A stretch of DNA of 64,000 nucleotides from the NCBI GenBank assembly GCA_020630715.1, contig JAHDIQ010000003.1:62001-126000 (forward strand), given 5' to 3'. Below are positions 5,497-55,980 of the stretch, one piece after another. This DNA comes from Nonlabens sp. Its GTDB lineage: Bacteria > Bacteroidota > Bacteroidia > Flavobacteriales > Flavobacteriaceae. The notes beneath the pieces were generated by a model. That model saw nothing but the letters and a program-made list of their open reading frames with translations. It did no database searches and had not been told where the DNA came from. The position numbers were made by a program, and so were the translations under genes. Position 1 is the stretch's first letter; each line of letters opens with the position of its first letter.

Positions 5497-5512
5497 CGCT
5501 TTCGCAAAAGCG
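5497..5512. repeat. 16-bp palindrome, one mismatch (paaA-paaB gap)
   Basis: CGCTTTCGCAAAAGCG starts 4 bp after the paaA stop codon. It differs from the consensus by one central base (G to A). Confidence 0.85.
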
Positions 5513-5575
5513 TAATCAGCATAATCATATAGGTAACGGCGGAACTAATTGCGCCAGAATCACAAATAAAAAAAA

Positions 5576-5860
5576 ATGAGTAAAGAAATTCCATTATGGG
5601 AAGTATTCATTAGATCAAAGAACGGTCTAGAACATAGACATTGCGGCAGTTTACATGCTGAAGATGCAGAGATGGCAATGAATAATGCTCGAGATGTGTA
5701 CACTAGAAGAAATGAAGGAGTAAGCATCTGGGTAGTGGAGAGCAAAAACATTACCGCTAGTAGTCCTGAACATAGCAGTGAACTTTTTGAACCAGCAACA
5801 GATAAAGTATATCGTCATCCTACTTTTTATGAATTGCCGGATGAGTTGAAGCATATGTAG
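5576..5860 (+). CDS. paaB: 1,2-phenylacetyl-CoA epoxidase subunit PaaB
   Basis: A 94-residue protein matching PaaB over its full length (PLWEVFIRSKNGLEHRHCGS at the N-terminus, then LHAEDAEMAMNNARDVYTRR). PaaB is a small subunit thought to connect the PaaAC core with the reductase. It stands 82 bp after paaA and is followed at once by the left repeat arm of the first S23/IVP element, which separates it from paaC. Confidence 0.95.
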   Translation: MSKEIPLWEVFIRSKNGLEHRHCGSLHAEDAEMAMNNARDVYTRRNEGVSIWVVESKNITASSPEHSSELFEPATDKVYRHPTFYELPDELKHM

Positions 5861-5899
5861 GTTTTAAAATCAAAATCAAAACCAAAACTAAAATCAAAT
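5861..5899 (+). repeat. Left arm of IVS-like element 1 (AAAATC array)
   Basis: About six hexamers: AAAATC, AAAATC, AAAACC, AAAACT, AAAATC and a partial unit. It begins directly after the paaB stop codon. Confidence 0.85.
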
Positions 5900-5903
5900 A
5901 GCA

Positions 5904-6251
5904 ATGAGCGAGAAACCTTACGATGTAGAAGATCGCCTGATACTTTTTGCTGCAGATATAGTAAGACAATTTGATTTTCCTATTAAAACTTATGCCTCTA
6001 AGTATTATGCCGAGCAATTAATACGTTCTTCTGGCAGTGCAGCGTTAAACTATGGTGAGTTTGCTGGTTCGGGAACGAGTAAAGACAGAATTAATAAACT
6101 TAGAATTTGTTTAAAGGAATTAAAAGAGTGTAAGAACAATTTAAGGATACAACTCAAAGCAAATCTTTTAAAAGTCGATCAAGAAAATTTAGTTGACGAG
6201 GCTTTACAATTAAGCAAAATCGTAGCGACAATTATTAAAAACCAAAAGTAA
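5904..6251 (+). CDS. Four-helix-bundle protein, S23/IVP family (copy 1)
   Basis: A 115-residue all-helical protein of the family first found as the ORF in 23S rRNA intervening sequences (TIGR02436-type; related in fold to the Avd protein of diversity-generating retroelements). The conserved core QLIRSSGSAALNYGEFAG is near residues 37-54, then NKLRICLKELKEC. It is clearly homologous to copy 2 at 7184: both share QLIRSS-S-ALNYGE, G-GT, NKLRI-LKEL-EC and the C-terminal IIKN. It has no known role in phenylacetate catabolism. Its function is unknown, possibly nucleic-acid binding as proposed for Avd. It lies inside the paa operon in the same direction. Confidence 0.85.
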   Translation: MSEKPYDVEDRLILFAADIVRQFDFPIKTYASKYYAEQLIRSSGSAALNYGEFAGSGTSKDRINKLRICLKELKECKNNLRIQLKANLLKVDQENLVDEALQLSKIVATIIKNQK

Positions 6252-6262
6252 GCGTTTTCAAA

Positions 6263-6300
6263 ATTGATTTTGATTTTGATTTTCGTTTTGTTTTTAAATC
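6263..6300 (-). repeat. Right arm of IVS-like element 1 (GATTTT array)
   Basis: Units GATTTT, GATTTT, GATTTT, CGTTTT, GTTTTT pair with the left arm at 5861-5899. Some annotations could extend paaC back into this arm; the hydrophobic stretch MILILIFVLF so produced is an artefact of the repeat. Confidence 0.85.
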
Positions 6301-6311
6301 ATTTTATTTTT

Positions 6312-7115
6312 ATGATGAAACCCATAAAAGAACTCAACCCACAATTCTTGGAGTCCAAGGAAAATAAAGAACACCTAATATCATATTTACTAGGCGTAGC
6401 AGATAATTATTTAATCCTTGCGCAACGACTTGGCGAGTTATGCGGTCATGGTCCTAATCTTGAACCAGATATAGCGATTACTAATATTTCTCTGGATTTA
6501 TTAGGTCAAGTACGTAGTTTTTATCAATACGTGGCTCAATTGAAAGGTGATAAATCCACTGAAGATGATATTGCATTCTTACGCAAGGAACGTGAATACC
6601 GAAGTGTGTTGTTAGTACAACAACCTAACACTGATTTTGGCTATGTGATTGTGAGACAGTTTTTCTTTGATGTTTATAACAAAATGTTTTTAAATGCCTT
6701 ACAACAAAGCGCAGATGAAACATTACGTGCATTAGCATTTAAAGGAATTAAAGAGGCAAGTTACCATGAGCGTTTTTCTGGAGACTGGTTGAAAAGACTA
6801 GGCGATGGGACAGTAGAGAGCAAGCAACGTGTACAACAGGCAGTCAATGACCTTTGGGTATTTACAGATGAATTATTTCACAGTTCAAAAGCAGACGATG
6901 CGATGATCACTGCAGGAGTTGCGCCAGATATGTTGCAACTACGTGAGTACTATTATGAGAAAGTTGAAAATTTACTCACAGAGGCGACTCTAGAAATTCC
7001 AGAAGTTCCTTATTTCCAAAAAGGTGGAAAGGAAGGACTGCATAGTGAATACATGGGATATATACTTTCTGAAATGCAGTATATGCAAAGGGCGTATCCT
7101 AATTCTCGATGGTAA
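6312..7115 (+). CDS. paaC: 1,2-phenylacetyl-CoA epoxidase, structural subunit PaaC
   Basis: A 267-residue ferritin-like protein that pairs with PaaA and stabilises the epoxidase. The start is taken as the ATG pair at 6312; the longer in-frame ORF from 6264 reads into the repeat arm and is rejected. The N-terminal helix includes LLGVADNYLILAQRLGELCG, as in other PaaC proteins, and the C-terminus ends in the usual EMQYMQRAYPNSRW. The stop codon sits in the loop of a 6-bp hairpin (CGATGG-TAAA-CCATCG, 7107-7122) at the edge of the next repeat array. Confidence 0.95.
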   Translation: MMKPIKELNPQFLESKENKEHLISYLLGVADNYLILAQRLGELCGHGPNLEPDIAITNISLDLLGQVRSFYQYVAQLKGDKSTEDDIAFLRKEREYRSVLLVQQPNTDFGYVIVRQFFFDVYNKMFLNALQQSADETLRALAFKGIKEASYHERFSGDWLKRLGDGTVESKQRVQQAVNDLWVFTDELFHSSKADDAMITAGVAPDMLQLREYYYEKVENLLTEATLEIPEVPYFQKGGKEGLHSEYMGYILSEMQYMQRAYPNSRW

Positions 7116-7122
7116 ACCATCG
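7107..7122. repeat. Hairpin across the paaC stop codon
   Basis: CGATGG and CCATCG are perfect 6-bp arms around TAAA, so the stop codon falls in the loop. The 3' arm merges into the first hexamer of the following array. Confidence 0.7.
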
Positions 7123-7176
7123 AAATCGAAATCGAAATCGAAGTTGAAATTGAAATCGAAATTGAAAAATTGAAAT
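7117..7176 (+). repeat. Left arm of IVS-like element 2 (GAARTY array)
   Basis: At least eight hexamers of the form GAARTY follow the paaC stop codon; the register is kept without gaps for about 50 nt. Confidence 0.88.
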
Positions 7177-7183
7177 AGACCTT

Positions 7184-7528
7184 ATGCCTGATTACGATCT
7201 TGCTGATAGATTAGAAGATTTTGCTGCTTCAATAATTAAGATGTACGATGTGATGCCAAAGTCTTATGCAGCTCAATACCTTGCTCAACAATTAATAAGA
7301 TCTAGTTGTTCCACTGCTCTGAATTATGGAGAAGCTCTCGGAGCAGGAACAACCAGAGATCAATTGAATAAACTACGAATTACTCTTAAAGAACTGAGAG
7401 AATGTCTGAGAAACTTAAACATACAATCAAAAGCTAAGCTTATCGATGTTAATATATTTGATAAATTAAGGAATGAGAATGATCAGTTAATTAGAATAGT
7501 CGTTACAATTATCAAAAACAAGTCTTAG
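7184..7528 (+). CDS. Four-helix-bundle protein, S23/IVP family (copy 2)
   Basis: A 114-residue helical protein with the S23/IVP signature QLIRSSCSTALNYGEALG near residues 37-54 and NKLRITLKELRECLRNL after it. It is about half identical to copy 1 at 5904, so the two elements probably share an origin, but they are too divergent for a recent duplication. It is intact, in operon direction, with an ATG at 7184 shortly after the left repeat arm. Function is unknown. Confidence 0.85.
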   Translation: MPDYDLADRLEDFAASIIKMYDVMPKSYAAQYLAQQLIRSSCSTALNYGEALGAGTTRDQLNKLRITLKELRECLRNLNIQSKAKLIDVNIFDKLRNENDQLIRIVVTIIKNKS

Positions 7529-7544
7529 TATATTTTACATGCAA

Positions 7545-7583
7545 GAATTTCAACTTCAATTTCAACTTCGATTTCAATTTCTT
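7545..7583 (-). repeat. Right arm of IVS-like element 2
   Basis: Reverse complement of the left arm hexamers (AATTTC, AACTTC, AATTTC, AACTTC, GATTTC, AATTTC). It ends 23 nt before the paaD start codon. Confidence 0.88.
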
Positions 7584-7606
7584 TGCATATTCATCATTAA
7601 AAATTT

Positions 7607-8104
7607 ATGATCCAAAACTATAATATACCACAAGAGCTATTAGGTATTCTAGAATCCGTAAAAGACCCAGAGATTCCTGTATTAAACGTTATAGATTTAG
7701 GTGTAATAAGAGAAGTGATAGTAGATGGTAAAGAAATTCTAATTAAACTCACACCTACCTACAGCGGTTGCCCAGCGATGGACGTGATAGGTGATGATCT
7801 AGAACGTGCATTTGCAAAGGCTGGATACACGACAACTATCCAATTAGTCATGTCACCACCATGGACCACAGACTGGATTACAGATCGTGGTCGTAAAGCT
7901 CTTGAAGAATATGGTATCGCAGCACCACTGGACGAAGTTGCAGATAAAGACGTGCTACTCAATAATAAAAAACTGGTAAAGTGTACCAACTGCGGTTCAC
8001 AAAATACAAAGCTGATTAGTCAATTTGGTTCTACAGCTTGTAAGGCAATGTTCCAATGTGAAGATTGCCATGAGCCGTTTGATTATTTTAAGTGTTTGAA
8101 GTAA
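7607..8104 (+). CDS. paaD: 1,2-phenylacetyl-CoA epoxidase maturation factor PaaD
   Basis: A 165-residue protein with an N-terminal MIP18/DUF59 domain (DPEIPVLNVIDLGVIREV, residues about 20-37) and a C-terminal cysteine-rich zinc ribbon (CTNC and CEDC pairs plus a final C). PaaD is needed for assembly of the epoxidase complex, probably in metal-centre delivery. It is the last gene of the paaE-D operon. The stop codon is 2 bp from the end of the convergent gene at 8107, with no terminator hairpin visible between them. Confidence 0.95.
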   Translation: MIQNYNIPQELLGILESVKDPEIPVLNVIDLGVIREVIVDGKEILIKLTPTYSGCPAMDVIGDDLERAFAKAGYTTTIQLVMSPPWTTDWITDRGRKALEEYGIAAPLDEVADKDVLLNNKKLVKCTNCGSQNTKLISQFGSTACKAMFQCEDCHEPFDYFKCLK

Positions 8105-26374: not shown

Positions 26375-27127
26375 ATGAGTGATCCTTACGTAAAAACACA
26401 AACTGAAAACCAAATAACAACCATAGAATTCTTTCATCCTGCGCACAACTCCTTGCCTAGTGATGTGCTTGCAAATCTCGCACAAGCGATTACAGATGCA
26501 GGAAATGATGACGCTACTAAAGTGATCATCTTAAAGTCTGGTGGTGAGCGCACCTTTTGTGCAGGAGCTAGTTTTAAAGAACTAGTAGCCATAAATGATG
26601 AAAAAACTGGATTGCGGTTCTTTAGTGGCTTTGCAAATGTGATTAATGCGATGCGTAAGTGTCCTAAATTCATCATAGGTCGTGTACAAGGTAAAACTGT
26701 AGGTGGTGGCGTAGGAGTCGCTGCAGCAACAGACTATTGTTTTGCTACAAAATTTGCTGCTATTAAATTGAGTGAGCTTAATATAGGAATAGGTCCATTT
26801 GTAGTAGGTCCAGCAGTACAACGCAAATTAGGACTAACAGGAATGAGCCAGATTGCTATAAATGCAAATGAATTCTATTCGCCAGAATGGGCAAAAAACA
26901 AAGGCCTATTTGCTGAGGTTTATGATTCTACTGAAGAAATGGACACGGGAATTCAAGCATTTGCAGAGCATCTAGCTACCTATAATCCAGATGCAATGGC
27001 AGAGATGAAAAAAATGTTCTGGACTGGCTGTGAAGATTGGGATACTCTGTTGATAGAAAGAGCAGAGATTTCTGGACGATTAGTGTTGAGTGATTTTACT
27101 AAAGAGACGTTGAAGCGCTTTCGCTAG
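26375..27127 (+). CDS. paaF: Enoyl-CoA hydratase/isomerase family protein, probable PaaF
   Basis: A 250-residue crotonase-fold protein. Oxyanion-hole stretches RTFCAGASFKEL (residues about 54-65) and VQGKTVGGGVGVAAAT (about 107-122) are present. In the paa pathway a second crotonase, PaaF, hydrates 2,3-dehydroadipyl-CoA, and its place between paaZ and paaY fits that role. Sequence alone does not prove the substrate. The catalytic region SELNIGIGPFVVGPAVQ is less typical than in PaaG. Confidence 0.8.
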   Translation: MSDPYVKTQTENQITTIEFFHPAHNSLPSDVLANLAQAITDAGNDDATKVIILKSGGERTFCAGASFKELVAINDEKTGLRFFSGFANVINAMRKCPKFIIGRVQGKTVGGGVGVAAATDYCFATKFAAIKLSELNIGIGPFVVGPAVQRKLGLTGMSQIAINANEFYSPEWAKNKGLFAEVYDSTEEMDTGIQAFAEHLATYNPDAMAEMKKMFWTGCEDWDTLLIERAEISGRLVLSDFTKETLKRFR

Positions 27128-27165
27128 CTGTGAGTCCGTAGCTATGAGCCATGAGCTCTAAGTTT
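27126..27165 (+). repeat. Left arm of IVS-like element 3 (GYYNTGA array)
   Basis: Five consecutive 7-mers follow the paaF stop codon at once; the array ends 41 bp before the start codon of the broken S23/IVP gene. Confidence 0.8.
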
Positions 27166-27206: not shown

Positions 27207-27581
27207 ATGAAATTTGAAAGTGAATATCATTTCAGTTTTGTAAACTTATTAGTGTATCAGAAAGCAATTGATTTTGGTGAAGTCTTTAATATGTTGGTTG
27301 AGTAATTTCCTAAAAAGGAAATGTATAGGTTGTCCTCTCAGTTCTGTATAGCAGCAGATTCCATAGCTGTAATTATTTCTGAAGGATCAGGAAGTACAGA
27401 TCCCAATTTTAATCGTTACTTGAAAACGGCTTGGGATAGCAGTCATGAATGTGTTACTTGGAATACAAAAGCATATCTAAGAAGTTACATTTCCCATGAA
27501 CAGTTTGAACAAAACAGATCAACTCTTACAGAAATAGGTAAAATGATCTCAGCACTCCGTAAAAAGTTAAAAACAAAGTGA
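27207..27581 (+). pseudogene. Four-helix-bundle protein, S23/IVP family (copy 3), internal stop
   Basis: The frame opens at ATG 27207 (MKFESEYHFSFVNLLVYQKA), a typical S23/IVP start, and runs into TAA at 27303-27305; the same frame then continues unbroken (FPKKEMYRLSSQFCIAADSI) to the stop at 27579. A single C-to-T change (CAA to TAA) in the codon before FPKKE, where the family usually has Gln or similar, explains it. The full product would be 124 residues. It is from a different subfamily than copies 1 and 2. An internal ATG at 27321 could give an 86-residue remnant. Confidence 0.8.
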
Positions 27582-27606: not shown

Positions 27607-27635
27607 TTGCTCACAGCTCATAACTCAAAGCTTAA
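27607..27635 (-). repeat. Right arm of IVS-like element 3
   Basis: GCTCACAGCTCATAACTC and following bases pair with the left arm at 27126-27165. It ends directly before the paaY ATG. Confidence 0.8.
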
Positions 27636-28232
27636 ATGATCTACTCCTTCAAATCCCACATCCCAGTCATCCACGAGTCCAGCTTTGTACATCCACAGGC
27701 AACGGTCATCGGTAATGTTATTATAGGTAAGAATTGTTATGTGGGTCCTAGTGCGGTGATACGTGGTGATTGGGGCGAGATCATTCTAGAGGATGGAGTG
27801 AACGTACAAGAGAATTGTACCGTACACATGTTTCCAGGAAAAAGCATTACGCTTAAAGAAGGAGCACACGTAGGTCATGGAGCGATTATTCACGGTGCAA
27901 ATCTGGGACGTAATTGCATGATAGGAATGAATAGTGTGATTATGGATGATGCGGTCATAGGAGATGAGTGTATTGTAGGAGCCATGGCATTTGTAAAAGC
28001 TGAAGCTGTTTTTCAACCACGAAGTCTCATCGTAGGGAATCCTGCCAAAAAAATCAAAGAAGTCTCTCATCAAATGATCGCATGGAAAACGGCTGGAACA
28101 AAATTATACCAGCAATTGCCAGCAGATTGTCATAATACCATGAAAAAAGTAGAGCCATTAAGGGAAATCCCACAAAACAGACCCATTCAAGAAGACTTCT
28201 ATAAAACCTTACAAGAGATTAAAGGTAGTTAA
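27636..28232 (+). CDS. paaY: PaaY, gamma-carbonic-anhydrase-fold thioesterase
   Basis: A 198-residue left-handed beta-helix protein with hexapeptide repeats (residues about 15-145, for example VIGNVIIGKNCYVGPSAVIRGD) and three zinc-ligand histidines in the area of HVGHGAIIHG. PaaY hydrolyses dead-end CoA thioesters formed from unstable ring-opening products. Length is typical. The start codon follows directly on the right arm of IVS-like element 3, so translation might depend on how that arm folds (inference). Confidence 0.92.
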   Translation: MIYSFKSHIPVIHESSFVHPQATVIGNVIIGKNCYVGPSAVIRGDWGEIILEDGVNVQENCTVHMFPGKSITLKEGAHVGHGAIIHGANLGRNCMIGMNSVIMDDAVIGDECIVGAMAFVKAEAVFQPRSLIVGNPAKKIKEVSHQMIAWKTAGTKLYQQLPADCHNTMKKVEPLREIPQNRPIQEDFYKTLQEIKGS

Positions 28233-29213: not shown

Positions 29214-30566
29214 ATGGCAAAGACTATGGATTTCATACTCCCGAAAATGGGAGAATCAATAACTGAAGGAACCATCCTAAACTGGTTAGTGCAAGAAGGA
29301 GAATCCTTTGAAGAAGGCGATATATTAGTGGAAGTAGGAACGGATAAGGTAGATAATGAAGTGCCAGCTCCAGCAACTGGAATAATGTCTAAGCATTTAT
29401 GTGATCCAGGTGATGTGGTTGAAATAGGCAGCGTGATTGCTCAGTTTGAAGAAAGTGATGGTTTAGTGTCATCTGTTAACGTTACAAAGCGTAACGATAA
29501 AAAAGAACAGATTCCGCATCAAGTGCGGAATGACAAGTCAAATGTCAGTTCGAGCGCAGTCGTGAACAGTTCAAAAACACAAAACCCTGTTCGCTCAAAT
29601 TCAACTTCAAATTCAATTTCGAGTTCATACGTAAATCAAGACCTATTCGTAAGTCCATTAATAGATGCTATGGCTCGTCAGCATCATATTTCTTATGAAG
29701 AATTAGCGCGCATACCAGCAACAGGTCATGAAAACAGACTGCGTAAAAGTGATGTTGTTAATTATTTAAATGATGGACGTCCATTCCAGTTTGCACAAGC
29801 TGTGAGCAATGAGCCAGATCCTACAGCTTATCGCATACCACAATTAAATCTAGATAAAGGTAAAGGTCGTATTGTAGAAATGGATCGTATGCGCAGTATG
29901 ATTGCAGATCATATGGTCTATAGTAAACATACCAGTCCACATGTAACGGCTTATGTAGAGGCAGATATGACAGATCTAGTCAACTGGCGTAATGAGCATA
30001 AAATACCTTTTCAAGAAAAACACGGCGAGAAACTCACTTTCACACCGCTATTTGTAAAAGCAGTGGCAAGTGCTATTAAACAATACCCGATGATCAACTC
30101 GAGTCTAGACGGCAAGAATATCATCGTAAAAGAAGATATTAATGTAGGAATGGCTACGGCATTACCTACAGGTAATTTAATTGTACCAGTAGTAAAAAAC
30201 GCAGATCAAAAATCCCTTGTAGAACTAGCGACAGATGTGAATCGATTAGCACATCTAGCTCGTGAAAACAAATTAGGTGGTGATGATATAAAAGGTGGCT
30301 CCTTCACGATATCTAATGTAGGAACCTTTGGATCACTAATGGGAACACCTATTATCAACCAGCCAGAAGCTGCGATCCTAGCTACAGGAATCATTAAAAA
30401 ACGTGCAGAGGTGATTACAGAAAACGGAGAAGATCGTATCGAGATACGTAGTATGATGATGTTGAGTTTATCCTTTGATCATCGAGTGGTGGACGGGTTT
30501 TTAGGAGGCTCGTTTTTGAAGCAAGTTGCTTTGAATTTGGAATTTGCACCTGAAGAAGATTATTAA
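29214..30566 (+). CDS. Dihydrolipoamide acyltransferase (E2) of a 2-oxoacid dehydrogenase
   Basis: A 450-residue E2 protein: lipoyl domain with Lys45 (GTDKVDNE), a long linker (about 85-140), a peripheral subunit-binding domain (about 142-185) and a catalytic domain ending in FDHRVVDG (His423). It moves acyl groups to CoA; the family covers branched-chain and related 2-oxoacids. The linker is partly coded by genomic repeats: a REP-like hairpin (29511-29531) and a TCAAAT-type hexamer array (29595-29630). It carries the paa-type operator and is followed by the E1 gene. E3 is not in the window. Confidence 0.93.
   Translation: MAKTMDFILPKMGESITEGTILNWLVQEGESFEEGDILVEVGTDKVDNEVPAPATGIMSKHLCDPGDVVEIGSVIAQFEESDGLVSSVNVTKRNDKKEQIPHQVRNDKSNVSSSAVVNSSKTQNPVRSNSTSNSISSSYVNQDLFVSPLIDAMARQHHISYEELARIPATGHENRLRKSDVVNYLNDGRPFQFAQAVSNEPDPTAYRIPQLNLDKGKGRIVEMDRMRSMIADHMVYSKHTSPHVTAYVEADMTDLVNWRNEHKIPFQEKHGEKLTFTPLFVKAVASAIKQYPMINSSLDGKNIIVKEDINVGMATALPTGNLIVPVVKNADQKSLVELATDVNRLAHLARENKLGGDDIKGGSFTISNVGTFGSLMGTPIINQPEAAILATGIIKKRAEVITENGEDRIEIRSMMMLSLSFDHRVVDGFLGGSFLKQVALNLEFAPEEDY
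29511..29531. repeat. REP-like hairpin inside the E2 coding sequence
   Basis: ATTCCGCA-TCAAG-TGCGGAAT, perfect 8-bp arms, read in frame as part of the flexible linker (QIPHQVRND). The type is common as an intergenic repeat in bacteria. Confidence 0.75.
29595..29630. repeat. In-frame hexamer array in the E2 linker
   Basis: Units TCAAAT, TCAACT, TCAAAT, TCAATT, TCGAGT code the Ser/Asn/Thr-rich linker SNSTSNSISSS. Reverse-complemented they resemble the GAARTY hexamers of IVS-like element 2. Confidence 0.7.
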
Positions 30567-30735: not shown

Positions 30736-32793
30736 TTGGAAAAGTCATTATTAGAATTCGGATATAGAAACCTCACCACTGCCAAAGCTATGGCAGAGCT
30801 TTACGAAGAGAATTTTAAACTAGTGTCAAAATACGTGCATGCGACCAGTCGTGGTCATGAGGTGATACAAACGGCGATAGGGATGCAATTGCAACCTCAG
30901 GATTATGCTTTTCCTTACTACCGCGACGATGCGATGCTACTTGCTATAGGTATGAAGCCTTACGATTTGATGTTGCAGTTACTGGCAAAAAAAGACGATC
31001 CTTTTTCTGGCGGTCGCACCTATTACTCACATCCATCCTTAAAAGATGATGATAAGCCTAAAATCCCTCATCAATCTAGTGCCACTGGTATGCAAGCGAT
31101 TCCTGCTACTGGAGTTGCCTTAGGTTTTCATTATAAGGAAAGTTTTAAAAATTCAGAATTCAGAATTCAGAATTCTGAATTGCCTATAGTAGTATGTTCA
31201 CTAGGTGACGCATCCGTAACAGAAGGTGAGATTGCAGAGGCTTTTCAAATGGCGGCTTTAAAACAATTACCCATTTTATATCTTGTACAGGATAACGGCT
31301 GGGACATCAGTGCAAACGCAGCAGAGACTCGTGCACAAAATGCAGCAGAATATGCCGCTGGTTTTCACGGAATAGAAGCTATTTCTATAGATGGGACAGA
31401 TTTTGAAGAAAGCTACAACACCTTAAATGAGGTGATTCATAAAATACGTACAGAGCGCAGACCGTTTCTGGTTCATGCAAAAGTACCTTTACTAAATCAC
31501 CATACTAGCGGTGTGCGCATGGAGTTTTATCGTGATGATTTGGAAGAGGCGAGAAGCCGTGATCCGTATCCGCGTATGAGGAAATTGTTGCTAGAAAATG
31601 GATTTAGTGAGCAAGATGTGGATGGATATGACGCTTTCGCGAAAGCGGAAGTAAAAGAACATCTAGACCTAGCATTGCAACAACCAGATCCAGAACCACA
31701 GGATTTATTCACGCACGACTTTGCACCTACACCTATCACAGAAGAAAAAGGAGAGCGATCTCCAGCAGGAGCCGAAAAAGTAGTGATGGTAGATTGCGCC
31801 TTATTTGCTATAGAAGAATTAATGCGCAAGCACCCAGAATGTTTACTATACGGTCAAGATGTAGGAGGAAGATTAGGTGGTGTGTTTAGAGAAGCGGCGA
31901 CACTGGCACAAAAATTTGGCGATAATCGAGTGTTCAATACACCTATTCAAGAGGCCTTTATCGTAGGAAGTACGGTAGGAATGAGCGCGGTAGGATTAAA
32001 ACCTATCGTAGAGGTGCAATTTGCAGATTACATATGGCCAGGATTGAATCAGCTGTTTACGGAGGTTTCTCGTTCCTGTTATTTAAGTAATGGGAAATGG
32101 CCAGTTTCTATGATTTTAAGAGTTCCTATAGGAGCCTATGGTTCTGGCGGACCGTATCATTCTAGTTCTATGGAAAGTGTAGTGTCTAACATAAGAGGTC
32201 TTAAAATCGCCTATCCATCTAATGGTGCTGACTTAAAAGGTCTTATGAAAGCAGCGTATTATGACCCGAATCCCGTAGTGATTTTTGAACATAAAGGACT
32301 GTACTGGTCTAAAGTAAAAGGTACCAAAGGAGCAACTAGTGTAGAACCAAGTGAAGATTATGTGTTGCCTTTTGGAAAAGCATGGGTGTTGCAAGAAATC
32401 TGGAAAAAAGAGGAAGAAGAAACCTTATCCATTATCACTTACGGAATGGGCGTGCACTGGGCAATGAATGCAACAGAGCAGTTAGGTGTTCAAGATAGAG
32501 TAGAGATAGTAGATTTAAGAACGCTTCATCCACTGGATTATGAAACTGTTTTTGCTAGTGTAAAAAAATGCGGTAAATGCCTTGTTATTACAGAAGAACC
32601 TAGTGATAATGGATTCTCTCGTGGATTACAAGGTCGTATTCAGGAAGAATGTTTTATACATCTAGACGCACCAGTAATGCTTATAGGTAGTGAAAATATG
32701 CCAGCGATTCCATTAAATAGTACTTTAGAACAAACCATGATTCCTAGTACAGAGAAAGTGAAGGTAAAGATTGAAGAAGTATTGAATTATTAG
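30736..32793 (+). CDS. 2-oxoacid dehydrogenase E1, fused alpha and beta subunits
   Basis: A 685-residue thiamine-diphosphate enzyme with the alpha part at about 1-335 (GDAS at about 157 and NGWDISANAAETRA as the TPP motif) and the beta part from about 345 (HPECLLYGQDVGGRLGGVF). It decarboxylates a 2-oxoacid and acylates the E2 lipoyl group. Similar fused E1 proteins in this phylum are called branched-chain type. The start is TTG at 30736, since no ATG or GTG fits the conserved N-terminus. A 7-mer AATTCAG array (31150-31181) and a 16-bp palindrome (31632) lie in frame, coding NSEFRIQNSE and DAFAKAE. Confidence 0.92.
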   Translation: MEKSLLEFGYRNLTTAKAMAELYEENFKLVSKYVHATSRGHEVIQTAIGMQLQPQDYAFPYYRDDAMLLAIGMKPYDLMLQLLAKKDDPFSGGRTYYSHPSLKDDDKPKIPHQSSATGMQAIPATGVALGFHYKESFKNSEFRIQNSELPIVVCSLGDASVTEGEIAEAFQMAALKQLPILYLVQDNGWDISANAAETRAQNAAEYAAGFHGIEAISIDGTDFEESYNTLNEVIHKIRTERRPFLVHAKVPLLNHHTSGVRMEFYRDDLEEARSRDPYPRMRKLLLENGFSEQDVDGYDAFAKAEVKEHLDLALQQPDPEPQDLFTHDFAPTPITEEKGERSPAGAEKVVMVDCALFAIEELMRKHPECLLYGQDVGGRLGGVFREAATLAQKFGDNRVFNTPIQEAFIVGSTVGMSAVGLKPIVEVQFADYIWPGLNQLFTEVSRSCYLSNGKWPVSMILRVPIGAYGSGGPYHSSSMESVVSNIRGLKIAYPSNGADLKGLMKAAYYDPNPVVIFEHKGLYWSKVKGTKGATSVEPSEDYVLPFGKAWVLQEIWKKEEEETLSIITYGMGVHWAMNATEQLGVQDRVEIVDLRTLHPLDYETVFASVKKCGKCLVITEEPSDNGFSRGLQGRIQEECFIHLDAPVMLIGSENMPAIPLNSTLEQTMIPSTEKVKVKIEEVLNY
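31150..31181. repeat. In-frame AATTCAG array inside the E1 gene
   Basis: Three direct copies of AATTCAG followed by AATTCTGAATT, which pairs back on the last copy (ATTCAGAATTCTGAAT is a perfect palindrome). It codes residues about 139-149 in a loop before the TPP-binding region. Confidence 0.85.
31632..31647. repeat. 16-bp palindrome, perfect copy (in E1 gene)
   Basis: CGCTTTCGCGAAAGCG, read as A-F-A-K-A near residue 301, in the alpha part close to the linker to the beta part. Confidence 0.95.
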
Positions 32794-52763: not shown

Positions 52764-52822
52764 TGACAAATCCTAAACTACGAACTCCAAACTCTAAACT
52801 CCAAGCTCCAAATCTTAAACTC
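52764..52822. repeat. Solo 7-mer array (AAACTCC type)
   Basis: Units AAATCCT, AAACTAC, GAACTCC, AAACTCT, AAACTCC, AAGCTCC, AAATCTT, AAACTCG keep 7-nt register. No S23/IVP ORF is next to it. Confidence 0.75.
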
Positions 52823-53464: not shown

Positions 53465-53553
53465 ACTAAGTACTCCTTCCTTTGAAGCGCTGTATTGAGC
53501 TTGTCGAAATAGAAGGTCGGGATGGATGTTGGCAATGTTGTTATAAAATTCCA
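53465..53553. repeat. 90-bp dispersed repeat, copy A
   Basis: Starts ACTAAGTACTCCTTCCTTTG, contains GAGCTTGTCGAAATAGAAGG and ends with TTATAAAATTCCA. Copies B and C are at 55653 and 55861. Confidence 0.85.
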
Positions 53554-53593
53554 AAAACCAAAAACCAAAAATCTCCAATCAAAAATCGTTAAT

Positions 53594-55652: not shown

Positions 55653-55743
55653 AGACTAAGTTCTCCTTCCTTTGAAGCGCCGTATTGAGCTTGTCGAAAT
55701 AGAAGGTCGGGATGGATGTTTGCAATGTTATTATAAAATTCCA
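55653..55743. repeat. 90-bp dispersed repeat, copy B
   Basis: Starts ACTAAGTTCTCCTTCCTTTG, contains GAGCTTGTCGAAATAGAAGG (from 55687) and ends in TTATAAAATTCCAAATTCC. Confidence 0.85.
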
Positions 55744-55772
55744 AATTCCAAATTTCAAAACTCAAAGCATCG
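55736..55772. repeat. 7-mer array after repeat copy B
   Basis: AAATTCC, AAATTCC, AAATTTC, AAAACTC, AAAGC in 7-nt register. Confidence 0.7.
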
Positions 55773-55860: not shown

Positions 55861-55950
55861 AGTACTCCTTCCATTGAAGCGCCGTGTTGAGCTTGTCGAA
55901 ATAGAAGGTCGGGATGGGTGTTGGCAATGCGATAATAAAAATTCCAAATT
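55861..55950. repeat. 90-bp dispersed repeat, copy C
   Basis: Starts AGTACTCCTTCCATTGAAGC, contains GAGCTTGTCGAAATAGAAGG (from 55889) and runs into a longer AAATTCC array. Confidence 0.85.
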
Positions 55951-55980
55951 CCAAATTCCAAATTCCAAACCCCAATTCCA
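55938..55980. repeat. 7-mer AAATTCC array
   Basis: Four to five near-perfect tandem AAATTCC units and then AAACCCC. It has the same register as the solo arrays near 52.8 and 55.7 kb and the AATTCAG array in the E1 gene. Confidence 0.85.

Follow-up and report, generated by a model that had tools for sequence, protein, structure and literature searches.

Inverted arrays of one short repeat flank an intervening-sequence-type gene between paaC and paaD of Nonlabens and may be kept alike partly by template switching

In a Nonlabens sp. genome (Flavobacteriaceae), a gene of the family named for the intervening sequences (IVSs) of 23S rRNA lies in sense between paaC and paaD, and is bordered by two inverted arrays of a shared hexamer. 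We read this stretch, here called element 2, as an IVS-like element of the intercistronic type, and, with somewhat better than even confidence, suggest that its arms form a hairpin free of any one register and are kept alike in part by template switching. This reading builds on the observed anatomy and placement of the element, on a unit that its two arms share and that is specific to it, on an order of unit variants that is not conserved, and on one copying event in a related element. The window, meaning the whole stretch of DNA analysed, spans 64,000 nt (GenBank assembly GCA_020630715.1, contig JAHDIQ010000003.1, positions 62,001 to 126,000, forward strand), and coordinates refer to it unless another locus is named. 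Its gene order is paaE-paaA-paaB-[element 1]-paaC-[element 2]-paaD, in which element 1 is a second PF05635 element that fills the paaB-paaC gap and carries arms of another unit (Table 1).

Table 1. Positions of the two elements and of their neighbouring genes in the window.
Feature	Position	Strand	Assignment or remark
paaB	5576..5860	+	reading frame read; presumably paaB, from its place in the operon
Left arm, element 1	5863..5897	+	AAAATC-type unit
IVP gene, element 1	5904..6251	+	115 aa; PF05635 / TIGR02436
Right arm, element 1	6264..6298	+	
paaC, upstream neighbour of element 2	6312..7115	+	TIGR02158
Left arm, element 2	7122..7163	+	seven GAARTY hexamers; part paired with right arm, 7128-7163
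IVP gene, element 2	7184..7528	+	114 aa; PF05635 / TIGR02436 four helix bundle protein
Right arm, element 2	7546..7581	+	six hexamers, reverse complement of GAARTY
paaD, downstream neighbour of element 2	7607..8104	+	TIGR02159

The IVP gene of element 2 matches the '23S rRNA-intervening sequence' family PF05635 at 53.3 bits (cut-off 33.8) and TIGR02436 at 76.5 bits (cut-off 24), and its single PDB relative at E <= 0.01 is 2rld_A (E 8.6e-9). The left array starts six bases past the paaC stop codon, and the paired parts of the arms, 36 nt each, are complementary at 33 of 36 positions across a spacing of 382 nt. A preliminary description of this DNA had listed the hexamers of both arms, noted only three differences between them, all transitions, and set the arms more than 350 bp apart; reading and measurement agree with it on each point, and on the + strand all three differences are A.C mismatches, with no G.U among them. 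Folding 7100-7600 as RNA, a check suggested with that description, likewise returns the in-register stem, with a predicted energy of -116.2 kcal/mol against -90.5 (sd 5.1) for shuffled sequences (z = -5.0). The arms pair well in further registers too (35 nt at 86%, 33 nt at 88%). Their local score of 57 compares with 34 at the 99th percentile for flanks of different elements, and the match exceeds what unrelated flanks give by chance. A small hairpin, CGATGG - TAAA - CCATCG at 7107-7123, spans the stop codon of paaC immediately ahead of the left arm, and might be related to the origin of the left array.

The closest known counterparts are the IVSs of 23S rRNA that hold an S23/IVP reading frame, as in Coxiella burnetii, which have complementary borders, are cut out by RNase III and sit where continuity of the rRNA is not needed (according to the available part of PMC4990558). 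Element 2 resembles them in encoding a PF05635 protein, in its bordering by complementary arms predicted to form a stem, in an apparently scattered occurrence among related genomes and in a placement where the RNA need not be continuous. It differs in lying between protein-coding cistrons rather than inside an rRNA gene (an Rfam scan of 5500-7700 found no rRNA and one sub-threshold chance match), and in arms built as tandem arrays, with a unit of 6-8 nt that differs from element to element. Because location is a defining feature of the rRNA IVS and does not agree here, we do not class element 2 as a member of that group.

The same architecture recurs widely. PF05635 matches number seven in the window's genome, all first read by eye, and occur in 21 of 23 genomes of the genus, in 67 of 118 sampled from the order and in 116 of 148 sampled across the phylum. 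Element places were taken as the best matches listed in searches of the genus, order and phylum; of 227 elements from the genome, genus and order, nine had flanks under 120 nt and were left out, and 218 were analysed. Among these listed matches, the median score between an element's own arms was 32, as compared with 18 between arms of different elements and 18 for inverted matches between the flanks of 328 other genes, a control set in which some IVP genes may have escaped the filter. A score of 28 was reached by 149 of the 218 elements and by 36 of the 328 control genes, with 69 elements below it; clear arms are thus not universal among PF05635 elements. Arm-based counts accordingly use elements with an own score of at least 28 (149/218) or at least 30 (128/218), and, as IVP elements are not independent of one another, p values based on pairs are rough. 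A further 50 places across the phylum, again among the matches listed and drawn in part from Prolixibacteraceae and Cyclobacteriaceae records, gave 31 for own and 17 for mismatched arms, eight of them above the 99th percentile of mismatched pairs. Unit length was 6, 7 or 8 nt in 20, 40 and 13 of 73 elements, respectively, and the unit itself differs among elements (for example GAGCTAT, GATTTTT, AGTGAAA and AAAGATTC), the exact GATTAAC-array pattern being present in one of 146 genomes. Placement is more uniform: among the 149 elements with clear arms, both neighbours run in the direction of the IVP gene in 140 of the 146 with both assigned (as against 222 of 381 co-oriented control gene triples, taken from the longer stretches), the left arm starts a median of 7 nt past the upstream stop codon, and the right arm ends a median of 14 nt before the next ATG.

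The preliminary description also held that variant units follow a conserved order in the two arms of element 2, a claim that permutation does not bear out. At least 33 matches are obtained in 24 of 105 orders of the left-arm hexamers and in 12 of 60 orders of the right-arm hexamers by exact permutation, and random orders do equally well about 20% of the time. The same test on 36 strongly periodic arms of related elements gave a combined p of 0.79, no signal of order; the value of 1.9e-4 over all 73 related elements derives mainly from irregular arms, because shuffling the pieces of such arms destroys any match. After these permutation tests on element 2 and on the periodic arms, order conservation was dropped as evidence of coupling: the arms of element 2 share the unit, not its order. 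The contrast that had been drawn from order, selection for pairing or copying of one arm from the other as opposed to independent slippage, loses this premise, and the part of it that stands, a dependence between the two arms, does so on other support.

Part of that support comes from sister species. An IVP gene lies at paaC-paaD in 12 of the 23 genus genomes, eight times with GAANTY arms, and is absent there from the other 11, whose empty gaps are poorly alignable by eye; at paaB-paaC it is present in 19 of 23, in four IVP classes that each have an arm unit of their own. Across the eight GAANTY orthologues, whether units have a purine or a pyrimidine at their fourth base co-varies from arm to arm (r=0.885, p=0.011 by exact permutation), values not corrected for kinship, G000 and G004 being close and r falling to 0.80 without G000. 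The comparison of sister species proposed earlier divides: unit class co-varies as coupling predicts, whereas pooled own arms (41.1) do not significantly exceed pairings with other species' arms (38.3, p=0.16). One arm that has changed freely, which had been named as the finding that would speak against coupling, is encountered in part in G004, where the left arm is mixed (5/8 purine units) and the right arm is all purine (4/4). Left arms compared with left arms score 41.9, no greater likeness than that of own left with own right, which indicates that units turn over while the type of unit is kept.

The IVP gene itself appears to be under purifying selection, with a median dN/dS of 0.096 over the 17 usable of 28 pairs, most of them with saturated dS. 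Its identity between species hardly tracks that of PaaC (r=0.16, p=0.17 at paaC-paaD; r=0.11, p=0.06 at paaB-paaC), a pattern to be expected from occasional cassette replacement between species, and the IVP is the more alike of the two proteins in 4 of 66 pairs at paaC-paaD and 16 of 171 at paaB-paaC. Own-versus-cross tests that mix IVP classes (combined p 3.8e-6) are not used here as evidence of coupling after speciation, because whole cassettes differ between the classes. At paaC-paaD of genome G003 (L051, L076), the IVP frame runs stop-free through the right arm into PaaD as one open frame of 304 aa, in which the arm reads as a Ser-rich linker; in six of the eight GAANTY orthologues, the right arm falls within a possible Ser/Asn-rich N-terminal extension of PaaD.

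The resemblance between arms could also date from the birth of each element and then have eroded by independent slippage, an account that we consider unlikely, if the least so of the alternatives. It fits the absence of conserved unit order, the 56 of 116 elements whose own arms score below both orthologous comparisons, and orthologues at the same site with IVPs 80-90% identical, whose arms are interchangeable (cross/own score 0.96, 67 pairs). Co-variation of unit class between arms speaks against it, as does the equality of left-left and own left-right scores, which slippage from a common start would not preserve. Own arms moreover surpass every orthologous comparison in 19 of 116 elements, as opposed to 27 of 406 mismatched pairs (p=0.0025, pairs not independent), and do so by at least 8 in 8 of 116 elements as opposed to 2 of 406 mismatched pairs (p=1.5e-4, likewise for non-independent pairs). 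Element 2 is one of these eight: its arms reach 57 with each other, whereas the best comparisons with the corresponding arms of the seven orthologues give 39 and 41, an excess of +16.

A further difficulty for birth-likeness followed by slippage is a copying event in element L223, whose two flanking genes were named by eye as thiolase-like and acyl-CoA-dehydrogenase-like. Five orthologues of L223 have a left arm that passes from AGAGAAAAGA into CTTTT and then into the IVP start, ATGAA(G/A)CATAA(T/C)TTTAAG. Inspection of L223 reveals that the left arm instead continues as ATAAAGACTTAC-AATTTTAAG, which is right-arm sequence, such that the arms are now identical over 40 nt and no ATG is left ahead of the conserved part of the IVP; judged by alignment to the orthologues, an arm-to-arm copy that removed the gene's ATG is seen here. 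The inner end of the right arm has also changed, towards the left arm, which calls for more than one event or for two-way repair. Block copying that takes in bases outside the repeat is thus a feature of L223, and in element 2, where we found no non-repeat block copied between the arms, there is only the excess of own over orthologous scores. The quasipalindrome mutations of E. coli are said to be a precedent for template switching of this kind. The events in L223 resemble template-switch hairpin mutations, which can create and mend RNA hairpins (in the part available of PMC8794818), in that a block is copied between inverted arms; they are unlike them in that the arms stand about 400 nt apart as tandem repeats around a gene, with copying shown in L223 only.

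Selection on base pairing in the sense RNA could alone keep the arms matched through compensatory point changes, which we judge a shade less probable than birth-likeness with slippage. The strength of the predicted stem, the intercistronic placement in sense and the co-variation of unit class in orthologues would all suit such selection, under which the differences between arms, read on the transcribed strand, would be expected to be G.U more often than A.C. No such excess was found on the coding strand in 126 elements (G.U 91, A.C 118), in 149 elements (112 and 157) or in 69 representatives (47 and 70), and selection on sense-RNA pairing is unsupported at every threshold tried; therefore pair-by-pair selection on the RNA is not seen. 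The surplus of A.C belongs to the C/T class, with C in left arms where reverse-complemented right arms have T. Element 2, with A.C at all three of its differences, follows the same direction, and L223 changed by a block that cost it its own start codon. Of the two processes first offered for element 2, copying consequently gains support from L223, whereas pairing selection obtains none from the G.U test.

How arms relate to protein and site bears on the remaining accounts. For IVPs 80-90% identical, the cross/own score at different sites is 0.58 (8 pairs), well under the same-site value, and the arms there are unlike between elements yet matching within each; at 70-80% identity the contrast is weak (0.82 at the same site, 61 pairs, versus 0.69 at different sites, 9 pairs, p=0.08). 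Conversely, near-identical arms (34/36) enclose IVPs only 48% alike in L035 and in L279, a Prolixibacteraceae element whose neighbours look by eye like hisH and hisA. Unlike arms with alike proteins and like arms with unlike proteins indicate that arms are bound strictly neither to protein nor to site.

An IVP gene might instead insert beside a pre-existing dispersed array, the second arm then arising as an inverted copy of that array, which we regard as improbable. In its favour are the unlike arms of closely similar IVPs at different sites and the dispersal of GAANTY arrays through 16 of the 23 genus genomes (215 overlapping matches in G010, 51 in G004), several of them right after stop codons, as left arms are. 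No insertion was seen together with its empty site, however, and the site contrast is weak at 70-80% identity. The control pattern, read backward, has matches in several genomes as well (17 in G004; 9, against 0 for GAANTY, in G022), and part of the GAANTY dispersal is therefore a general repeat tendency. Purine-type units make up 13 of 13 in the arms of element 2 and 17 of 55 in ten other GAANTY arrays of the same genome, one of which is all purine. Although element 2 shares with dispersed short arrays a unit length within 6-8 nt, the turnover of unit order and the presence of GAANTY arrays elsewhere in the same genomes, it differs from them in that two inverted arrays with a common unit enclose one gene. 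Sixteen IVP-free GAANTY arrays were read; in 15 of them no inverted partner downstream scored more than 22, and the sixteenth, L311, scores 28 with directly adjoining sequence. Pairing is thus tied to the IVP context and not to the repeat.

Several arrays and gene remnants were noted in passing. Four IVP-free GAANTY arrays in genomes of the genus (L309, L311, L319 and L328) start about 15 bases or less past a stop codon, in left-arm sense. The window holds an antisense GAANTY array at 29592-29628, within the reading frame 29214-30566, and, at 31150-31181, a 7-nt repeat array within the reading frame of a gene named by eye as dehydrogenase-E1-like; a GAANTY array of another genome (L323, near 1501-1525) occupies seemingly the same place of such a gene. 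Further 7-nt tandem arrays lie in gaps between reading frames at 52774-52813, 53542-53575, 55730-55769 and 55931-55980, none with an inverted partner scoring at least 26 within 1500 bases downstream. A third PF05635 gene of the window, at 27243-27551, has an internal TAA and is flanked by AGCTATGAG-type repeats near 27120-27165 and at 27609-27636; from these features, the element around it looks to be decaying. Elsewhere in the same genome (L008, C16:61415), an IVP-free stretch upstream of a gene that by eye resembles hemH carries AAACTT- and GAAATT-type arrays oriented like right arms and is perhaps the relic of an element.

Recognition of the arms as binding sites by the IVP protein, with unit and protein co-evolving and pairing incidental, is very doubtful, for although each of the four IVP classes at paaB-paaC has its own arm unit and a Xanthomonas S23-type protein is a ring-shaped homopentamer (from the accessible part of PMC4990558), closely similar IVPs at different sites have unlike arms and the near-identical arms of L279 and L035 enclose dissimilar proteins.

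We accordingly return to an IVS-like intercistronic element with register-free arms. Here an IVP gene lies in sense between genes of an operon, with an array of one short tandem unit on either side, the two arrays being inverted relative to each other. Once transcribed into polycistronic mRNA, the arms would base-pair into a long stem whose loop contains the IVP cistron. By analogy with the rRNA IVS, this stem may be cut or shielded, for instance by RNase III; either would cause little damage, since the cistrons on the two sides do not have to stay connected. With both arms built in tandem from one unit, the stem could form in several registers and survive gain or loss of units. Occasional copying from arm to arm, by template switching or quasipalindrome correction, would keep the arms alike on top of slippage and may act in element 2 itself, with any selection on the arms presumably at most loose, for remaining pairable.

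More tentatively, and at rather less than even confidence, the PF05635 genes of Bacteroidota may constitute a large unrecognised class of intercistronic hairpin elements, an mRNA counterpart of the rRNA IVS, which would sit in sense between the genes of operons, undergo cutting or shielding at tandem-repeat stems free of any one register, and renew their arms by template switching, each element having its own matching, fast-changing unit of 6-8 nt. Literature searches, thin on subscription journals and hence no proof of novelty, returned no account of intercistronic PF05635 elements with repeat arms in the portions of text reached; a PF05635 gene is named in a table of PMC5524665, in the part of that paper available. 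The family is common yet little characterised, and the frequency of a single architecture suggests how its members are tolerated: the IVP element occupies a place where an mRNA could be broken at little cost, much as its relatives do in rRNA. Element-specific paired arms, moreover, offer a test, replicated in nature, of the ways in which inverted repeats remain matched.
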